Source: a virus
DNA: 47,264 nucleotides
IMG/VR virus record: IMGVR_UViG_3300033155_001653
Location: 1-47,264 of that record
Direction: 5' to 3' (one strand)
The position numbers were made by a program, and so were the translations under genes. The notes beneath the pieces are model-generated. The model was not told where the DNA came from. It was given only the letters and a program-made list of their open reading frames with translations, and did not search any database. Shown piece by piece: positions 3,834 through 44,270 of the stretch; positions within the stretch are counted from its first letter, which is position 1, and every line of letters starts with the position of its first letter.

Positions 3834-4868
3834 TCACTCCTCCTCCCTCTTGGCATCGACACTCTTTAGGTAATCGTGCCCATAGACAACCTTTTCATCC
3901 TTGGGGTCCACGGCGATGACCTGAAGACCAGTGTTCTGCTCGAACCAAGCCAACCACTCACCAATCATGACGCTCTTTTTGTTATGACTGAACGACAGAA
4001 AATGCTGAGCGATAAGACTCAAGGCATAGCCCGGGTGATCCGTGTCGGCCATCTTCTTCGCCAGCTCGACAGCCTCCTCGATGGAACCCTTGGTATCCTT
4101 CGGCACACGCTGCGAGAAAGTTGTCCATTCCTCATCCTTAGACTTCACCTCTTCCACCTGCTCCTCGGTCGGGGGCTCGACACCCTCAGTCTCCGAAGGC
4201 TCGTCTTCCACGACCTGCCCATTGGCCTCTGCCTCCTCAGTGGTCGGAGTCTCGGGCTCAGGGTCTTCCGGGGTCATCCCTGGGGGCGGGTTCATCGACG
4301 GCTTTGTGCTTGCAACCCGCCTATCTTTCTTCTTCCCAGCAGACTTTAGAGCTGCTCTGACGTTCTGGGCCAGCTCCTTCTCACTCATCGACTTGGCGAG
4401 ATCGAACCATTTCTTTGCGTTCTTCGAGTCGACAACCTTGACTAGATGATGAGCCTTCGTCCAGCCGATCTCCCTTGCTCCTTCGAGAAGCTTTGGTGCC
4501 CCCTTTTGCTCAATAACGAACCACCAATGAATGGACGAAAGCATCTGGGCCTTGCGGACCGTGAAATCAAATTCCGTCTCCACGTAGCCCTTGAAAGTTT
4601 CATGAGCACCCAAGCTCTTGGCAGTGAACAAGCGCTCCTCCGAAATCCGGTAGAGCAAATGAGCCATCTCGAAATAGGTATCCTCATAGGTCTGAAGACA
4701 TTGCACCAGGCGCAGATGGACCTTGTTGGCCTCGGTCTCATCTGTCGTCAACACTTCCACGCCACCCTTGGCCCCTGATAGGGAAACGAGATTTTTTGAC
4801 TTTCGCGCTTCAACCTCTTCATCGGTCAGCTCTCGATATCCTCCACCCTTCATGGCTATTTTTGTCAT
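3834..4868 (-). CDS. Hypothetical helical protein with acidic C-terminal half
   Basis: 344 residues. Residues 45-175 are rich in helices with aromatic clusters (YEDTYFEMAHLLYRI; SSIHWWFVIEQ), resembling DNA-associated regulatory or replication accessory proteins. Residues 185-250 form a low-complexity P/E/T-rich linker. The last 90 residues are a small mixed domain. The ATG overlaps the TGA of the resolvase gene (ATGA) and follows GGAGAG. Function unknown. Its place in a recombination operon suggests a DNA-metabolism role, but this is inference. Confidence 0.8.
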   Translation of the reverse strand: MTKIAMKGGGYRELTDEEVEARKSKNLVSLSGAKGGVEVLTTDETEANKVHLRLVQCLQTYEDTYFEMAHLLYRISEERLFTAKSLGAHETFKGYVETEFDFTVRKAQMLSSIHWWFVIEQKGAPKLLEGAREIGWTKAHHLVKVVDSKNAKKWFDLAKSMSEKELAQNVRAALKSAGKKKDRRVASTKPSMNPPPGMTPEDPEPETPTTEEAEANGQVVEDEPSETEGVEPPTEEQVEEVKSKDEEWTTFSQRVPKDTKGSIEEAVELAKKMADTDHPGYALSLIAQHFLSFSHNKKSVMIGEWLAWFEQNTGLQVIAVDPKDEKVVYGHDYLKSVDAKREEE

Positions 4869-8350: not shown

Positions 8351-8378
8351 ATTCTAAGCACTGAGATTGGGTTGTCAA
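8351..8378 (-). promoter_or_regulatory. Promoter of the recombination operon
   Basis: TTGACA (8373-8378), a 16-nt spacer ending CAGTGCT, and TAGAAT (8351-8356). The spacer end matches the conserved spacer of the phage promoter family. It directs the run of genes from 8332 down to 1232. Confidence 0.75.
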
Positions 8379-13515: not shown

Positions 13516-14034
13516 TTATTCATCGCCAAGGATCAGTGCATCCACGGCGTCATCTTCGGCATCAGCACGCGCATCGGCCTCTTCCTCTGTCAGATCCCTT
13601 GGTGTCCCACGCCGACGTGCGCGTTCTTTGGCCATCTTCTCGCCCGCACGCCGCTTTTTGACCTCAGCCATTTGTTGCCTGGTCGCAACCATCTCATCCA
13701 TGGTCATTGCGCCCTGATTCTTCTTTTTCCGCAGAAGTCGATAGAGTGCGATGATGCCTACCAGCTCATCAGTCACCAACGATGCAATACTGATACAGCC
13801 TCCAAACACAAGCGCCGCATACCAGGGCCACCCTTCGGCGAAAAAGGCCCACAAGAACCCAATCCAGACACCACAGCACATCGAGCAATGCAGAAGATCA
13901 CCAAGAACACTGAACGGACTCCACGCATTCTGGAACCCGCTAAGCCATTCACGAAGGGGCTCAAAAATTCGACCCGCAGAAAAAACCAGAGTCACGCCAA
14001 TGAGGCCGACTATCTCCCACCATTGAATATCCAT
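13516..14034 (-). CDS. Membrane protein, possible DUF1360-like
   Basis: 172 residues. Hydrophobic segments at about 6-24 and 57-97 would cross the membrane two or three times. LHCSMCCGVWIGFLWAF (48-64) resembles the Cys-x-x-Cys-x-G-x-W-x-G motif of DUF1360-type membrane proteins. The last 70 residues are a charged cytoplasmic tail ending in acidic DAEDD. It lies between helicase and GroES-like genes in the replication operon. It might tether replication to the membrane, but that is speculation. Confidence 0.75.
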   Translation of the reverse strand: MDIQWWEIVGLIGVTLVFSAGRIFEPLREWLSGFQNAWSPFSVLGDLLHCSMCCGVWIGFLWAFFAEGWPWYAALVFGGCISIASLVTDELVGIIALYRLLRKKKNQGAMTMDEMVATRQQMAEVKKRRAGEKMAKERARRRGTPRDLTEEEADARADAEDDAVDALILGDE

Positions 14035-14075: not shown

Positions 14076-15413
14076 TCAATACACATACCCGTGCCCCTTG
14101 TCATCAAAGCTATCTCCGCCATCGTCCACAATGACACTGGTACCGATTTCATCGAAATTCATTTCATCCATGTCCCACCTGGCAACAACGGCAGACCACA
14201 GAGCTTGACGCCTCGCCTTCAATGGGACGTAAAGCATCTGTTTGTCCAACTTCATATCGTCGTCTTGGTACATGGCGAAGAGATTGTGACAGTCCTGGAA
14301 GAGGGTGTCAGAGAAGGCCAGGGCGTCTTCAAGCCCACCAGTACCCAGGCCCCTCTTCAGGGTCTCCTTCGCACTCTCCTTGACCTTGCCCTGACGGCTG
14401 AGCTGACTGATGGCGCACAGGGGCTTCTGGGTCCGCCTGGAAGTCGAGCGCATCCAGTCAACAGTCTGAACCATTCGCTCCTGACGGTCGCCGCGTGAAC
14501 CTGGACCCTTCTTGACCCCACCCTGAGCAACCTTCAGCATGTAAGCGCTGTCAATGGCCACGAGATCAGCATCAGTTGCCTCAATGGCCTCCTCGATAAA
14601 GGCTGGCTCCAACTTATCTTCGTCGTCCAGGATGAACAGATTGGAAGCTTCGGGAGAATTCTCGATATCCTCACATGTTTTGATAAATTGTGGTTCGGCG
14701 TACATTCCCATCGTCGCAGACACGACATCGCCGTAGTTGAACCCGCCATGTTTGACAACAAACCGCTCGCCCATCTCTACGCGATTCATTTCAGGGCTGA
14801 CCAGAAGCACCTTCAGCTTTTGCCCAAAAGCTGCGTGCAAGCAGATGAGCACCATCGTCCAAGTCTTTCCGATGCCAGGGCGAGCTACGAACATCGTGAG
14901 CGTGCCTGGCCACATCCCCAGGGTCATCTTCGTCATGGTATCCCAGGGGAACTTCACGCCGGTCTCGCCGGCCTTGGTGCGCTCATACAGTGCGCGGACC
15001 TCCGGGGCTACCTCTGCCAGCGTGTGAACTCGAGCCTTCTGAATGGACAGTGACTTCAGATGGCCAGAGAGCTTATGGACTTCTGCTTCTGCCTCATCCT
15101 TATCGCCTTGCTCCAGATACTCCAACCCATTCGAGAAGCCATGCTCCAGAGATCGAAATTTGTGCCGGTCAAGAAGCTGGTCGACCACCCAGTCAATGGC
15201 TGTTCCGTCCTCCACCATGACACTGACGCCGGTTTGCTCTTTGACTACCGAAGGAGGGGGAAGTTGGCCATGTTCCTTGAAATATTCCTGGACAAATACC
15301 CAGGCCCGCTTTCCTGGTCTAAGGAGCAGCGTTTCACTAAGAATCTCTCGCGCTTTCCTAAAACCAGACTCATTCTTCGTCGCCAAACCAATGGCGGCTG
15401 CATCAAGATCCAC
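14076..15413 (-). CDS. DnaB-like replicative helicase
   Basis: 445 residues from a GTG at 15413 with GGGGGAG 8 nt upstream. The N-terminal 130 residues are helical, like a DnaB N-domain. The RecA-like motor has Walker A ARPGIGKTW (177-185), LLVSPEMNRVEMGER (203-217), which matches the DnaB LEM box, and Walker B ADLVAIDS (282-289). A QLSRQ segment near 350 matches the region where DnaB has its LNR motif. It would unwind the fork ahead of synthesis, with the adjacent loader and primase. Confidence 0.9.
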   Translation of the reverse strand: MDLDAAAIGLATKNESGFRKAREILSETLLLRPGKRAWVFVQEYFKEHGQLPPPSVVKEQTGVSVMVEDGTAIDWVVDQLLDRHKFRSLEHGFSNGLEYLEQGDKDEAEAEVHKLSGHLKSLSIQKARVHTLAEVAPEVRALYERTKAGETGVKFPWDTMTKMTLGMWPGTLTMFVARPGIGKTWTMVLICLHAAFGQKLKVLLVSPEMNRVEMGERFVVKHGGFNYGDVVSATMGMYAEPQFIKTCEDIENSPEASNLFILDDEDKLEPAFIEEAIEATDADLVAIDSAYMLKVAQGGVKKGPGSRGDRQERMVQTVDWMRSTSRRTQKPLCAISQLSRQGKVKESAKETLKRGLGTGGLEDALAFSDTLFQDCHNLFAMYQDDDMKLDKQMLYVPLKARRQALWSAVVARWDMDEMNFDEIGTSVIVDDGGDSFDDKGHGYVY

Positions 15414-19159: not shown

Positions 19160-19187
19160 AACCTACCCATTCAAAAGGGTTTGTCAA
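19160..19187 (-). promoter_or_regulatory. Promoter 40 bp above the terminator
   Basis: TTGACA (19182-19187), a 16-nt spacer and TAGGTT (19160-19165). With the terminator at 19085 it would yield an RNA of roughly 70 nt, or drive the lysis genes by read-through. The spacer can also form an ACCC/GGGT hairpin, so it may only be part of the larger RNA. Confidence 0.45.
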
Positions 19188-22375: not shown

Positions 22376-22403
22376 TTGACAATCGCAAACCAATGCTTAG
22401 ATT
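22376..22403 (+). promoter_or_regulatory. Conserved-spacer promoter
   Basis: TTGACA (22376-22381), spacer ATCGCAAACCAATGCT, TAGATT (22398-22403). The spacer is identical to that of the promoter at 40730-40757. It drives three small genes (22427-23208). Confidence 0.88.
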
Positions 22404-23208: not shown

Positions 23209-24032
23209 CGCCGTTTCTGTGGGAAGCACTTGCGGTCGATCTGCTCCTGCGAAGGCTTCATCACAACCTTGTAACCAGCGCCGGTCTTACCCTTGACTGG
23301 CTTGATCGAGACGGTCGCTGCATTGGCCATCTTGGCAGCCTTCCCCAGCTTCTCTTCTTCGTCCCAATCTTCACCCTCTGATGCGTATGACCCCTGCTCC
23401 TCATACTCCCCAGCGATCTCCCACTTGATCTTGTTGCCCAGGTCATTGACAGGCCAGCGAAGCACATTGGCCAAGATGCCTTCCGGGTCACGGATGAAGC
23501 TCACGCCATTTTTCATCGCTGCAACAACGCACTCGGCCACCTTGTAATCACTCAAGCTCTTGGCGTTACGGACGTCAATGAGCCCGAAGTCGACGTAGCC
23601 CTTCTTGAGAGCTGCTTCGTGCTTGGAGCCCATCAATCCAGGTTTACGAGGCTCACGGTGCTTGGGACGATGGAAGTAGGGCTCGACCCCAGGAGTCACA
23701 TTGCTGTAGGAGCCCATCCCACGAGATTCTTCGAGGGGATCTTCGTCGTCCCAGGGAACGTCCTCGGCCAGGTTCGAGGGCTCTGGGTCTCCCGCTGACT
23801 CTGACCCTTGCTCAGGCTCGTCGTCGCTGATGTCGTAGCCCTCTTTGGTCATCCAGTCATCGAGCATCGAGACGAGCTTCGACTCGCCCCCCTCCCCAGA
23901 AACATTCTCATCCAGGGGCATCCTGTCACTCAGATTCCCCATGATGTGCTCAGCTCGATCACCACCAGTCAGCATGGAAAGCTCCCTGTGAGCATCATCT
24001 GCTACTGGCAACCCAAATGGATTGCGCGCCAT
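23205..24032 (-). CDS. Acidic hypothetical protein, possible virion component
   Basis: 275 residues from the ATG at 24032 with AGGAG 7 nt upstream. Residues 15-120 are acidic and low in complexity. Residues 135-235 form a more ordered domain (KKGYVDFGLIDVRNAKSLSD and a WPVNDLGNKIKWEI segment). The C-terminus is basic. Adjacent to the 24037 gene by 4 nt, so the two are co-transcribed. A structural or scaffolding role is a guess from composition. Confidence 0.75.
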   Translation of the reverse strand: MARNPFGLPVADDAHRELSMLTGGDRAEHIMGNLSDRMPLDENVSGEGGESKLVSMLDDWMTKEGYDISDDEPEQGSESAGDPEPSNLAEDVPWDDEDPLEESRGMGSYSNVTPGVEPYFHRPKHREPRKPGLMGSKHEAALKKGYVDFGLIDVRNAKSLSDYKVAECVVAAMKNGVSFIRDPEGILANVLRWPVNDLGNKIKWEIAGEYEEQGSYASEGEDWDEEEKLGKAAKMANAATVSIKPVKGKTGAGYKVVMKPSQEQIDRKCFPQKRR

Positions 24033-24036
24033 GGGT

Positions 24037-24546
24037 CTACTCCTGTTCCGGGATGACATGGAGCTGCGGCATGTCATGGTCGCCGGTCTGCGCAGCCACG
24101 ATGGCCTTGAATTGGACACTAGAGATGCCTTCGAGCACGACGGTGCGACTGAATGCCTTCCATGCGTCCGTATCAGCCTCTCGATACTGAAGCGTGATGT
24201 CGGCCTCAGCCACCGCTGGATTCGAGCCCTGGCCGACATGGCCCAGGAGCAGACCGAGCGTGGACATCGTGCCACTGATGGTTACAGGCGTGCCGAAGGT
24301 GATGAGGTCGTAAGTGATCTCTGCTGTCGCCACGTCTGGGACCTCGATGGAGTCGGTGGCTTCATCCACAACTCCACCGCTTATGGCATTGACCTGCGAA
24401 GCTCCCATGACGTGATGCTCATCACGACACAGATATTCGATCCGCAGAAGGAGCGCCGATTTCAGCGTTGCCTCCAGCGAAGAGTCATTGTTGACGCTGT
24501 TCCGAAGCAATTGTTGGAACATGCTGAAAGTCGTTTGGACGGCCAT
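24037..24546 (-). CDS. Possible virion structural protein
   Basis: 169 residues from the ATG at 24546, which has AGGAGG 5 nt upstream. The first 45 residues are helical. The rest is beta-rich with Thr/Val/Gly repeats (EITYDLITFGTPVTISGTMS) typical of phage tail or decoration proteins. No specific family recognised. It lies about 70 nt beyond the terminator of the large structured RNA and has no visible promoter of its own. Confidence 0.72.
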   Translation of the reverse strand: MAVQTTFSMFQQLLRNSVNNDSSLEATLKSALLLRIEYLCRDEHHVMGASQVNAISGGVVDEATDSIEVPDVATAEITYDLITFGTPVTISGTMSTLGLLLGHVGQGSNPAVAEADITLQYREADTDAWKAFSRTVVLEGISSVQFKAIVAAQTGDHDMPQLHVIPEQE

Positions 24547-24613
24547 GATTCCTCCTGTGCTAGCCCAGTCTACAACACGCGCTCGATTTCGAGAAGCCGC
24601 AGAGGATAACACG

Positions 24614-24657
24614 AAAAAAAAGCCCGAAGTCGAATGAGGCTATTCAACTCCGAGCCC
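24614..24657 (-). terminator. Strong intrinsic terminator of the large RNA
   Basis: A 15-bp stem, all positions paired if G-U is allowed, with a short AGCCTC-type loop and eight T (24614-24621). It ends the 780-nt transcript. Confidence 0.93.
24638..24657 (-). repeat. 3' copy of element A in the large RNA
   Basis: This 20-nt element matches 25283-25302 at 17 of 20 positions. It forms the 5' arm of the terminator stem. The upstream copy could pair with the terminator's 3' arm at 14 of 15 positions, allowing an alternative fold. Confidence 0.7.
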
Positions 24658-24742
24658 ACACCCCGGGAGGAGTGCCCAAGTTTTCTGGTGGATACGGTGC
24701 CCTGTAACCCTGCCCGCCTCCGACTGCCCAAAGGCAATCACA

Positions 24743-24770
24743 GCTCTCCTGACGACTAGCTGCGACCCAC
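24743..24770 (-). repeat. 3' copy of element B in the large RNA
   Basis: On the minus strand GGGTCGCAG is followed by CTAGTCGTCAGGAG. The 5' copy at 25244-25269 has GGGTCGCAG followed by GCTGGTCGGCGGAG. Related GTCG-GGAG segments occur at 24821-24837 and 24712-24729. Confidence 0.6.
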
Positions 24771-25010
24771 TATCAGACCAAAGTGGCTCTTTCCTCGGCC
24801 TCTACACCACGGAAGCTCTCGCCTCCGACGACCGGCCCACTGTCCCGCCTTTGGGGTACAAACCCAATGTGCATCCGGACGAGTGACGTCGCCCTGTGAC
24901 CTGGCCTCGGAAAGAGATAAGAAGCTCGTCACTGCCCCTCTCCACACCAAGGGGGTTTCCACCCCAAGAAGCGCCGCACCATCGACGTCCTCCGGGGGGA
25001 TTGTTACCCC

Positions 25011-25113
25011 TGGGACTCCAGGCGGGAGTCGAACCCGCTTTACCTACCCAGGGCCTCGATCCCTGGCACAAGGGCTTACTGTACATGCCTCGCGGCCCAA
25101 ACGTCTTAGAGTC
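25011..25113 (-). tRNA. tRNA-like domain inside the large RNA (not a canonical tRNA)
   Basis: A perfect T arm (GCGGG-TTCGACT-CCCGC, 25022-25038) is followed by TGGAGT, C and an encoded CCA (25011-25013). GACTCTA at 25107-25113 can pair with TGGAGTC as an acceptor stem. A CCAGGG/CCCTGG arm with 7-nt loop ATCGAGG (25048-25066) resembles an anticodon arm with U33 and CGA (Ser). The span of 103 nt and the lack of a normal D arm argue against an ordinary tRNA. It could be a tRNA-like module of the larger RNA or a type II tRNA with an odd D region. Confidence 0.4.
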
Positions 25114-25243
25114 ACCCACCACCCTGTATGAACCCCTAGAAAGCCATTGCCAAAAGTGGTGTCCCGTCTCTCCGGGTTGTCACCGCCTGTTTTGGAGGAT
25201 TCACGGTTCCCTCCAGGAGGAACTAGCCAGTTTCATAGCCATT

Positions 25244-25269
25244 GGCTCCGCCGACCAGCCTGCGACCCC
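25244..25269 (-). repeat. 5' copy of element B in the large RNA
   Basis: Partner of 24743-24770; GGGTCGCAG plus a GTCG-GGAG segment. It lies just downstream of element A in the transcript, the mirror of the order near the 3' end. Confidence 0.6.
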
Positions 25270-25282
25270 TCTGAGCCGGGAT

Positions 25283-25302
25283 AGCTATTCAGCTCCAAGC
25301 CC
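25283..25302 (-). repeat. 5' copy of element A in the large RNA
   Basis: 17 of 20 positions match the terminator-proximal copy at 24638-24657. Confidence 0.7.
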
Positions 25303-25398
25303 TATTTCGGTGACTCAGCCCAGCTAACGGGTTTCGGTCACCAGTCAGAGGTAGGACCCTCCCTATCCGGGTTAGCTACGTCCCGGATGCGTACTCTC

Positions 25399-25426
25399 AA
25401 TTTATGCCATAAGAATGGGTTGTCAA
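25399..25426 (-). promoter_or_regulatory. Promoter of the large structured RNA
   Basis: TTGACA (25421-25426), a 16-nt spacer and TAAATT (25399-25404). The first hairpin of the RNA starts a few bases after the expected start site. It lies in the short gap below the ParB gene. Confidence 0.8.
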
Positions 25427-25442
25427 CCCTTTGATGAGATTT

Positions 25443-26312
25443 TTATTCACACTGTTGGATTGCGTCGTAAAGATCAGACCAGCCATCCTCGGGGTCCAAA
25501 TCGCCAATAGCCCACTTCAGGGCATCGAGAGGACGAGACTCCACGATGTCGTCATGCTGATCGATGATGAATCGAACGATCTTCTTCCCAGGCTTCTTCG
25601 GCGCCGACCCACCAGATGTTGATGCTGACTTCGCTCTTGCATCTGCCACTGTAGTGGCTCCCTCTTCCAGCATCTCATCCAAGGCCGTCTTCTGATCCTC
25701 TGGAGAAAGATTCGCAAGCTCAGCCGCAGCCGTGGCACTGATAAGCTCCTGATCCACAGCTCGCTTCACAGCAGTGATGCACTGGAGCACCTTCATCCAG
25801 TTGGAAATGGTGCTACTGGAAACACCATTGCGAATAGCAACCTCCTTCTGAGTCTTGCCGAAGTTGATGAGCCGAGCCGCCTTCTCCGCCTTCTCAATGA
25901 CGCCATCGTCATGACGGTGCGAGTTGGCCGAAATGAGCCGGCCCAGCATCGTCGCCGGGTCTTCCATCTGGACAAATCGACACGGTACCCGGATGAGATC
26001 ATCGACATCTTCCTGGCTCATCCCACGATTCATAAGGACAACTTTCGCCTCGCGAGCGCCCTTGGTTCGCTGACGACCATCGACCACAAGCGGATATCCA
26101 CCGACCTTGGTCACATCCACACTCTGCATCACGTTGTTGAGGATGATGTCCTCAACAAAATCCTTCGAGAGCTTCATGCCCTTCCGCTTGTCAAACAACT
26201 CGTGATCCACGGGTGCATCCTCGAATGGCTCATCCAGCCCGACGATCACAAGCTCTTCTGGCTTGAACATGAAGAGCTGCTTACGTGGTGCGTCAAATGC
26301 CTGACCTGCCAT
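25443..26312 (-). CDS. ParB-like protein
   Basis: 289 residues from the ATG at 26312, which has GGAGGT 5 nt upstream. The ParB/Srx-type N-terminal domain is shown by MKLSKDFVEDIILN (46-59) and PLVVDGRQRTKGAREA (74-89, the VIDG-x-RR-like box). A helix-turn-helix follows at 150-172 (GKTQKEVAIRNGVSSSTISN). The C-terminal 60 residues are a separate small domain. ParB proteins bind centromere-like sites, often as CTPases. No ParA is in the window, so it may act as a regulator rather than in partition. Confidence 0.8.
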   Translation of the reverse strand: MAGQAFDAPRKQLFMFKPEELVIVGLDEPFEDAPVDHELFDKRKGMKLSKDFVEDIILNNVMQSVDVTKVGGYPLVVDGRQRTKGAREAKVVLMNRGMSQEDVDDLIRVPCRFVQMEDPATMLGRLISANSHRHDDGVIEKAEKAARLINFGKTQKEVAIRNGVSSSTISNWMKVLQCITAVKRAVDQELISATAAAELANLSPEDQKTALDEMLEEGATTVADARAKSASTSGGSAPKKPGKKIVRFIIDQHDDIVESRPLDALKWAIGDLDPEDGWSDLYDAIQQCE

Positions 26313-26369
26313 AATAGACCTCCTTCTCCTTCGCCTTGGTAGGATTAATACACTACCCCATCTACCCAC

Positions 26370-41758: not shown

Positions 41759-42609
41759 CCACGGTCACCGCCAAGGTCCGAGCGCTTCTGAACACAGCAG
41801 CCAGCAGCTCTGGGTCGACCCCACATGAGGCCCACACTGCTGCATCCATCGCTGTAGACATCGCTCGCAAGGCCGACGCTGGTCACCTGGTAGCCCGTGC
41901 GCTCAATGCTCAAGCCAAAGCTGCTGCTCGCGTGGCGCGCACCGAAGTATCTGACGCCACTGAACCCAATTTCATCAATCCTTTGCACACAATATGGGAA
42001 AAAGCCCACACCAAAGGCCAATTCATATTTGACTACACAGCCCGCGACAAAGCCGTGAAGCACTACGCTTGGTCCGTGCCGACCGAATACGCCATCCGTC
42101 GCATCATCGAGTGCGGACCCGTGGTCGAGATCGGCGCCGGTTCAGGGTACTGGGCCAGCCTCATCGCGCAGCTCGGCGGAGACGTCATAGCCTTCGACCA
42201 ATATCAGCCCCATGAGAACAAGGACTATCCCTTCGAGCAAGGTTGGTTCGAGGTCCAAGAAGGTGGCCCCGAGAAGGGCGCTGAGCACTCCAACAGGGCG
42301 CTGTTCCTGTGCTGGCCCCCATATGCCACCTCCTTCGCCTACGACTGCCTGAAGGCGTACCAAGGCGACACGCTCATCTTTGTGGGCGAGGGCTCTGGTG
42401 GCTGCACTGGCGACGACGATTTTTTCCGTCTCCTTGATGATCACTATGACCAGGATGACGACGATTTTTTCCGTCTCCTTGGTGATCACTATGACCAGGA
42501 TGACGACGAGTCTGACATCAAGGCCCAATGGGAAGAAGTCGAGTGCGTGACCATCCCGCAATGGGAAGGCATCCATGACTACATGACCATCTACAGGAGG
42601 AAAAAATGA
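41755..42609 (+). CDS. Class I SAM-dependent methyltransferase-like protein
   Basis: 284 residues from the ATG at 41755 (ATGA overlap). After a helical N-terminus, VVEIGAGSGYWASLIAQLGG is SAM-binding motif I, followed by DVIAFDQYQ, whose Asp would contact the ribose. LFLCWPPYATSF takes the place of motif IV, and VGEGSGGCTGDDDFF follows. The target is unknown: DNA, protein or small molecule. A 45-bp tandem duplication adds 15 residues (DDDFFRLL-DHYDQD) within the last third. Confidence 0.78.
   Translation: MTTVTAKVRALLNTAASSSGSTPHEAHTAASIAVDIARKADAGHLVARALNAQAKAAARVARTEVSDATEPNFINPLHTIWEKAHTKGQFIFDYTARDKAVKHYAWSVPTEYAIRRIIECGPVVEIGAGSGYWASLIAQLGGDVIAFDQYQPHENKDYPFEQGWFEVQEGGPEKGAEHSNRALFLCWPPYATSFAYDCLKAYQGDTLIFVGEGSGGCTGDDDFFRLLDDHYDQDDDDFFRLLGDHYDQDDDESDIKAQWEEVECVTIPQWEGIHDYMTIYRRKK
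42412..42501 (+). repeat. 45-bp in-frame tandem duplication
   Basis: Two adjacent 45-bp units (42412-42456 and 42457-42501) differ by a single base, which changes Asp to Gly. Each encodes 15 residues, DDDFFRLL then D or G and DHYDQD. A partial third start (GACGACGAG) follows. Confidence 0.92.
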
Positions 42610-43577: not shown

Positions 43578-44270
43578 CTAGCGGCGCTTCTTCCGCTTGA
43601 CCTTCTTACGGACCCTGGTCTTCGGCGCCACCTTGAGCTTCGGATTCACCCTGATGGTGTCGTTCTCGACTCCCTTGTGAAAGCGCACGATGGCCTTTCT
43701 CGCACTATCCTTCGCCATCGGTTTCATGCGATCCAAAAACGTCTTGCCGTCGAGGTGATCCATCTCATGCTGAATGATTCGTCCCAACATCCCATCCATG
43801 GAAAGGGTGTATGGCTCACCCTTCCTACTGCAAGCCCGTAAAATTACGTTTTCTGGGCGCTTCACGACTTCATTGACGCCAGGGAAGCTCAGGCATCCTT
43901 CTATGATTCCGACTTCTTGTGACCCCTCTGGAGTCTCAATGACCGGATTGACGGCGACGAGGAGTTGATTGACGCTCTCCCCCTTCTTCACCCTTGCACC
44001 CAGAGCTGTAATGTCCGACACGAAAACTCGGAGCGACACACCAATCTGAATTGCCGACAGGCCAATTCCGCCGCACATGTACATCGTGGTCACCATGTCT
44101 GAGACGAGCTTGTCTAGCTGCTCGCCAAAGAATTCTGGTGGTACCTCTTTGCTGGGAGCCAACAGACGATCATCCGGATAGAAGACAATGCCGCTGACCT
44201 GCCCCGCTGGTGCGTCACGGAGAAGCTCTGGGGTTGGCTCCTTCATTATCTCAATGACCTCGACACTCAT
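43578..44270 (-). CDS. def: Peptide deformylase
   Basis: 230 residues, ATG overlapping the preceding TGA (ATGA). All three motifs are intact: GGIGLSAIQIG (67-77), EGCLSFPG (124-131, metal-binding Cys) and QHEMDHLDG (167-175, both His ligands and catalytic Glu). It removes formyl groups from new proteins. Phage copies are known, for example in cyanophages. A basic C-terminal tail of about 45 residues (RKKVKRKKRR) is unusual and could bind the ribosome or RNA. Confidence 0.93.
   Translation of the reverse strand: MSVEVIEIMKEPTPELLRDAPAGQVSGIVFYPDDRLLAPSKEVPPEFFGEQLDKLVSDMVTTMYMCGGIGLSAIQIGVSLRVFVSDITALGARVKKGESVNQLLVAVNPVIETPEGSQEVGIIEGCLSFPGVNEVVKRPENVILRACSRKGEPYTLSMDGMLGRIIQHEMDHLDGKTFLDRMKPMAKDSARKAIVRFHKGVENDTIRVNPKLKVAPKTRVRKKVKRKKRR

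Follow-up and report, generated by a model that had tools for sequence, protein, structure and literature searches.

Environmental virus DNA from IMG/VR record IMGVR_UViG_3300033155_001653 appears to carry a modular, structured noncoding RNA encoded by a phage gene that stands alone. The gene is predicted at positions 24614-25393 of the window, by which is meant the whole stretch of 47,264 nucleotides that was analyzed, and it very probably exists. It has its own sigma70-type promoter, no protein, its own terminator, two conserved modules, and a large phage-specific domain. Judging from the two sequences, a related phage retains the 5' module and a tRNA-like module, with compensatory changes in both. 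The best explanation, to which we give a probability of roughly 0.4, is a modular phage RNA whose tRNA mimicry engages the tRNA-handling machinery of the host.

The full transcription unit, from promoter to terminator, covers window positions 25426-24614 on the minus strand. Its neighbors are a ParB-like gene (25443-26369) on one side and, on the other, a gene of unknown function (24037-24612) that has no Pfam or PHROG match. Its elements are:

24614..25393, minus strand: predicted noncoding transcript of ~780 nt, with the 5' end inferred from the -10 box and the 3' end from the terminator T run
25399..25426, minus strand: promoter TTGACA-16-TAAATT; the window has about 15 of this form, this one included
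24614..24657, minus strand: intrinsic terminator with a conserved loop, GCCTCAT; in the relative, 13 of 13 pairs are kept through 6 changes

The promoter and terminator had both been claimed in an earlier sequence-only reading of this DNA, and both hold up. One TTGACA-16-TAAATT promoter is found at the locus against 0.2 expected in shuffles, and it belongs to a recurrent phage set of the form GTTGACA-N16/17-TAgrTT, with about 15 members in the window and about 19 in the relative. The terminator hairpin (24657-24620) consists of 16 pairs followed by eight T. The same reading saw no plausible protein here, and the region is indeed non-coding: its four open frames (68-143 codons) all receive strongly negative scores, between -19 and -32, from a hexamer coding model trained on long genes of the same phage, whereas every called gene is positive in this model (+12 to +295). 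The two longest frames have no Pfam match.

Promoters of the GTTGACA-N16-TAgrTT family recur, for instance at 8378, 19656, 20589, and 40757 on the minus strand and at 22376, 28143, 41516, and 42983 on the plus strand. The sequence GGACGGAGGACACCATG is often found downstream of them. Elsewhere in the window, a gene contains a 45-nt in-frame tandem duplication, 98% identical (42412-42501), and a phage-encoded peptide deformylase is found at 43578-44246 on the minus strand (Pfam E 1.8e-41).

The transcript had been likened to the large RNA classes GOLLD and ROOL, which are known to lie near tRNAs in phages. Neither class appears in a cmscan of all Rfam families at E values up to 10. A dedicated GOLLD (RF02032) search, in which no control genome passed the cut-off, so that it had no strong positive control, gave no match, and nor did a dedicated ROOL (RF03087) search, in which no positive control was detected. 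A tmRNA is likewise missing from the window and the relative according to both ARAGORN and Rfam RF00023, which detected controls in 14 of 14 genomes; all three models proposed for checking the transcript thus fail to match it. The RNA does not share the location near tRNAs, since a tRNA gene was detected neither in the window nor in the 100 kb examined in the relative. What stands is the long noncoding phage RNA itself, for which promoter, terminator, absence of coding, synteny, and stem conservation all speak. Matches to RNase P, YrlA, Tymo-tRNA, RAGATH-16, and mir models were rejected as below cut-off and at chance level, and the RNA as a whole fits no known family. A Ro60 (TROVE) gene was found in neither the window nor the relative; the host may have one.

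The relative is the IMG/VR contig IMGVR_UViG_3300027057_000001, of 100,682 bases. It is syntenic with much of the left and middle of the window, and the proteins are mostly 60-88% identical. Between the same two flanking genes, it has four blocks of the RNA in the same order and on the same strand. The blocks, in RNA positions, and the domain that is missing between them are:

27-55: 93% identical
87-129: 86% identical
245-383: 80% identical
726-780: 78% identical
24671..25010 of the window, minus strand: variable domain of ~340 nt, absent from the relative, with no match among known phages

In the relative, the second half of the RNA has its own promoter (TTGACA-16-TAAGAT at position 14219 of the contig) and its own terminator. 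The first half is preceded by a promoter read by eye (TTGACA-16-TAACTT at 13852) and has terminator-like hairpins at its end, near 14161-14188. The relative therefore seems to make RNAs of ~300 nt and ~260 nt in place of one of ~780 nt. This split into two transcripts argues against a single obligate giant RNA, and modules that occur as separate transcripts should be able to work apart. A gene for S-adenosylmethionine decarboxylase (SpeD) adjoins the RNA locus in the relative (L027:14522-14878) and is absent from that place in the window.

Within the collections searched (IMG/VR, GTDB, phages, and plasmids), these two RNAs are the only known members. DNA and protein scans of IMG/VR gave only the one relative contig and chance matches. 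Two patterns searched against GTDB genomes gave no match, or chance matches in protein-coding sequence, and blastn against phages and plasmids gave no homologue of the RNA. Felix-O1-like matches, located in AT-rich repeats, were rejected as chance.

The 5' part of the RNA forms a conserved module, and a further stem lies directly 5' of the tRNA-like domain:

25225..25393, minus strand: 5' module A, with blocks 86-93% identical in the relative and two-sided changes in P2, P3, and P5
25388-25382/25371-25365, minus strand: stem P1 of module A
25361-25358/25351-25348, minus strand: stem P2 of module A, with loop GTCCTA
25342-25337/25314-25309, minus strand: stem P3 of module A
25278-25273/25268-25263, minus strand: stem P5 of module A
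25321..25378, minus strand: candidate loop-loop contact between L1 (25378-25372, TAGCTAA) and L3 (25327-25321, TTAGCTG)
25117..25161, minus strand: stem P6, CACCACT/GGTGGTG, with a conserved loop inside, directly 5' of the tRNA-like domain

The sequence-only reading had also pointed to dense structure with at least six perfect hairpins. The density could not be shown to exceed chance; at 59% GC, perfect hairpins of short length are to be expected. The minimum-energy fold of 786 nt differs little from dinucleotide shuffles (z -0.63; 5 of 20 shuffles are equally good), and therefore dense structure is by itself no evidence. The hairpins that carry weight are those retained in the relative. The second-half transcript there has a better fold than shuffled sequence (z -2.51; 1 of 200).

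Ten named stems, picked with both sequences in view, were compared between window and relative in a tally that leaves out the L1-L3 contact and takes the arms as aligned in the relative. Among their 65 pairs, 39 are unchanged, 11 have a one-sided change, 15 have a two-sided change, and none is broken. The two-sided changes fall in P6 (six), P3 and the anticodon-like stem (two each), and P2, P5, the acceptor, the T arm, and the terminator (one each; the terminator also has five one-sided changes). The clearest conserved stem by this comparison is P6, which reads GCTGTCG/CGACAGC in the relative, with both bases altered in 6 of 7 pairs and pairing kept in all, in a register set by hand one base off the MAFFT alignment. 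The L1-L3 contact is suggestive only: it becomes CAGCCAA/GTGGCTG, with one two-sided change, one one-sided change, and one pair broken.

A blind test of all window helices, with low power from two sequences, is only suggestive. Null draws had at least as many preserved helices in 91 of 500 cases for module B, 27 of 500 for module A, and 31 of 500 for the terminator. RNAalifold also recovers covarying stems, but prefers another nested fold for part of the tRNA-like region. A search for homologues with covariation, suggested earlier as a check, has thus given one relative with ten stems that stay paired through changes, and a weak result in the blind two-sequence test.

One alternative is a large ornate RNA of a new class acting like GOLLD or ROOL, in which kissing loops would join copies into RNA-only multimers. 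The length of ~780 nt, the phage origin, the possible L1-L3 contact, a palindromic CCCGGG near the 3' end, and the conserved terminator loop are all compatible with it, and phage ICP1 also has an ~800-nt noncoding RNA and no tRNA genes (PMC7567579). The lack of an Rfam match, the split and the missing variable domain in the relative, and the lack of a tRNA island make this reading doubtful. A multimeric cage is possible, and nothing here supports it specifically.

Another alternative is a regulatory RNA that base-pairs with phage or host mRNA, as antisense or sponge, with the stems as scaffold only. L2 and its flank (GTCCTACC) perfectly complement, over 8-9 nt, the leaders of three phage mRNAs in the window. 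The complementarity is lost with the leaders of the relative, though L2 is identical there, and the conserved TAGGGC is equally able to pair with L2. For lack of conservation in the relative, antisense action of L2 on leaders was dropped as the main reading, and the alternative as a whole is unlikely.

A different transcript is a likely candidate for a role of this kind. A third small RNA (window 19155-19090, minus strand; L028:4362-4503 in the relative) has a promoter at 19187 and a strong terminator at 19123-19094. It contains TCCGTCCTA, antisense to the ribosome-binding leader GGACGGAGGACACCATG that is common to several phage genes. In the window, 1 of 100 shuffles equals or betters the mean energy of its duplexes with the leaders; in the relative, 9 of 100 do. 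By its complementarity, this is likely an sRNA that targets mRNAs of the phage itself.

The second half of the RNA contains a domain with tRNA geometry:

25011..25113, minus strand: tRNA-like domain, from the acceptor to CCCA
25113-25108/25019-25014, minus strand: acceptor stem, GACTCT/GGAGTC, which becomes GGCTCT/GGAGCC in the relative by one two-sided change
25088-25084/25070-25066, minus strand: short helix of the tRNA-like domain
25066-25061/25053-25048, minus strand: anticodon-like hairpin of six pairs with a 7-base loop, ATCGAGG, and two two-sided changes
25038-25022, minus strand: perfect T arm, GCGGG-TTCGACT-CCCGC, followed by exactly 7 nt and then CCCA ending at 25011

The D-arm region is expanded and may form a pseudoknot. 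A T arm with the T-loop consensus, 7 nt, and NCCA are present in the window, and the acceptor pairing is kept in the relative. The NCCA itself is not kept here: in the relative, the T arm of the homologous domain is bulged, and the domain has CTG and no CCA. Folded alone, the domain of the window only equals shuffled sequence in stability (z about 0). We consider it probably real. A tRNA-shaped hairpin set also occurs, unannotated, in Thermus phage YS40_Isch (MK257744.1, ~57310-57390), with acceptor GCCGGAG/CTCCGGC, a short D arm, an anticodon-like arm, and a perfect T arm. It has no CCA and runs straight into poly-T; it scores 25 bits against a model of the window's domain.

The pattern of T arm, 7 nt, and NCCA occurs at four places on both strands of the window and relative, against 0.25 expected, and all four are in gene-free RNA loci. 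One is 25038-25011; the other three are in the relative's copy of a second gene-free transcript. This transcript covers 19640-19200 on the minus strand of the window, with a phage promoter at 19656 (minus), and positions 23540-24360 of the relative (L028:3540-4360). Its core of 92 nt is 81.5% identical between the two. In the relative, it has three T arm-7 nt-ACCA ends (L028:3940-3966, 4136-4162, and 4333-4360), with the CCA near 23966, 24162, and 24360, ~197 nt apart, none of which is called by ARAGORN or Rfam. At the start of the second transcript are a ribosome-binding site and a frame of two codons, ATG GAC TAG in the window and ATG AGC TAG in the relative. In both, the small RNA described above comes next.

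The domain could instead be a degenerate tRNA gene in a long untranslated transcript, that is, a divergent tRNA with an enlarged D arm. The T arm, the 7-nt loop with a U33-like T, the 7-nt spacing, and the NCCA would all fit, and Rfam's model of tRNA-Sec can be aligned over its full length, with a score of 22.4 bits (E 0.09 for 931 bases; cut-off 47). Neither ARAGORN nor the Rfam tRNA models at cut-off call a complete cloverleaf in the RNA, and the acceptor has a mismatch beside the T arm. Decay would not keep compensatory changes plus an outer P6 stem, the 5' module and the terminator, both conserved, have no relation to tRNA, and the CCA is not kept in the relative. An origin of this kind is improbable.

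A chance gap or decayed genes would suit the ordinary global folding energy, and is very improbable given blocks 78-93% identical in an otherwise diverged gap, a kept promoter and terminator, and no protein trace. Still less credible is a phage attP for integration into a host tRNA gene: attP cores often carry a tRNA 3' half, but no tyrosine or serine integrase was found in the window or relative (both possibly incomplete), with both families detected in control genomes, nor any resolvase or reverse transcriptase, and the relative has three different such sequences within one RNA, besides the compensatory changes.

In the preferred reading, the tRNA-mimicking RNA would act in trans. Its acceptor stem, T arm, and NCCA-like end would serve as a handle for host tRNA-handling proteins, for which RNase P, other tRNA-processing nucleases, the CCA-adding enzyme, and EF-Tu are candidates. 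The likely outcome would be cleavage of the transcript at this handle, or its retention there, yielding stable RNA pieces or a decoy during infection. This role as handle or decoy is plausible, at somewhat less than even odds. The 5' module would provide a second, separate function.

A broader and quite speculative idea is that the RNA here and the second gene-free transcript belong to one family of long modular phage RNAs with embedded tRNA-like 3' ends, which host tRNA enzymes may cut and tail into stable pieces, or which may soak up those enzymes. We know of no phage RNA for which such cutting, tailing, or sequestering has been described.

To our knowledge, no function is known for GOLLD, ROOL, and similar large phage RNAs. 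A recognizable tRNA-like handle offers a hypothesis that is concrete in biochemical terms (RNase P, CCA-adding enzyme, EF-Tu), and the natural two-transcript split in the relative tells which modules can be examined apart.

GOLLD is often near tRNA islands and forms a 14-mer RNA cage. The RNA here resembles it in being phage-encoded, ~800 nt long, and composed of one more and one less conserved part; it differs in having no tRNA genes nearby, an internal tRNA-like domain, a division into two transcripts in the relative, and no model match. ROOL forms an octameric cage. Like the RNA here, it is large, structured, and of phage origin, and has a variable linker and contacts between loops (here candidate), but its model does not match. 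With tmRNA (RF00023), the RNA shares an acceptor and T arm inside a larger RNA and a possible pseudoknot, but only ~70 nt separate acceptor and T arm, no tag reading frame was found, and the model does not match. YrlA, or bacterial Y RNA (RF02553), has a tRNA-like module with a T-arm hairpin, and its match of 14.6 bits is at chance level.

Embedded tRNA-like elements are also found in long noncoding RNAs of humans. MALAT1 and MEN-beta carry such elements, mascRNA and menRNA, which are cut by RNase P (PMC11693755). These nuclear RNAs are unrelated by sequence, and RNase P cutting of the phage RNA is only inferred.

The closest in kind is the ~800-nt RNA of Vibrio phage ICP1, likewise a large noncoding RNA outside the named families, from an ORF-less locus of ~1 kb in a phage without tRNA genes (PMC7567579). 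The ICP1 RNA is shown to be abundant, whereas the RNA here is predicted from sequence and has no similarity in the phage collection. It is filed among the large structured phage RNAs.
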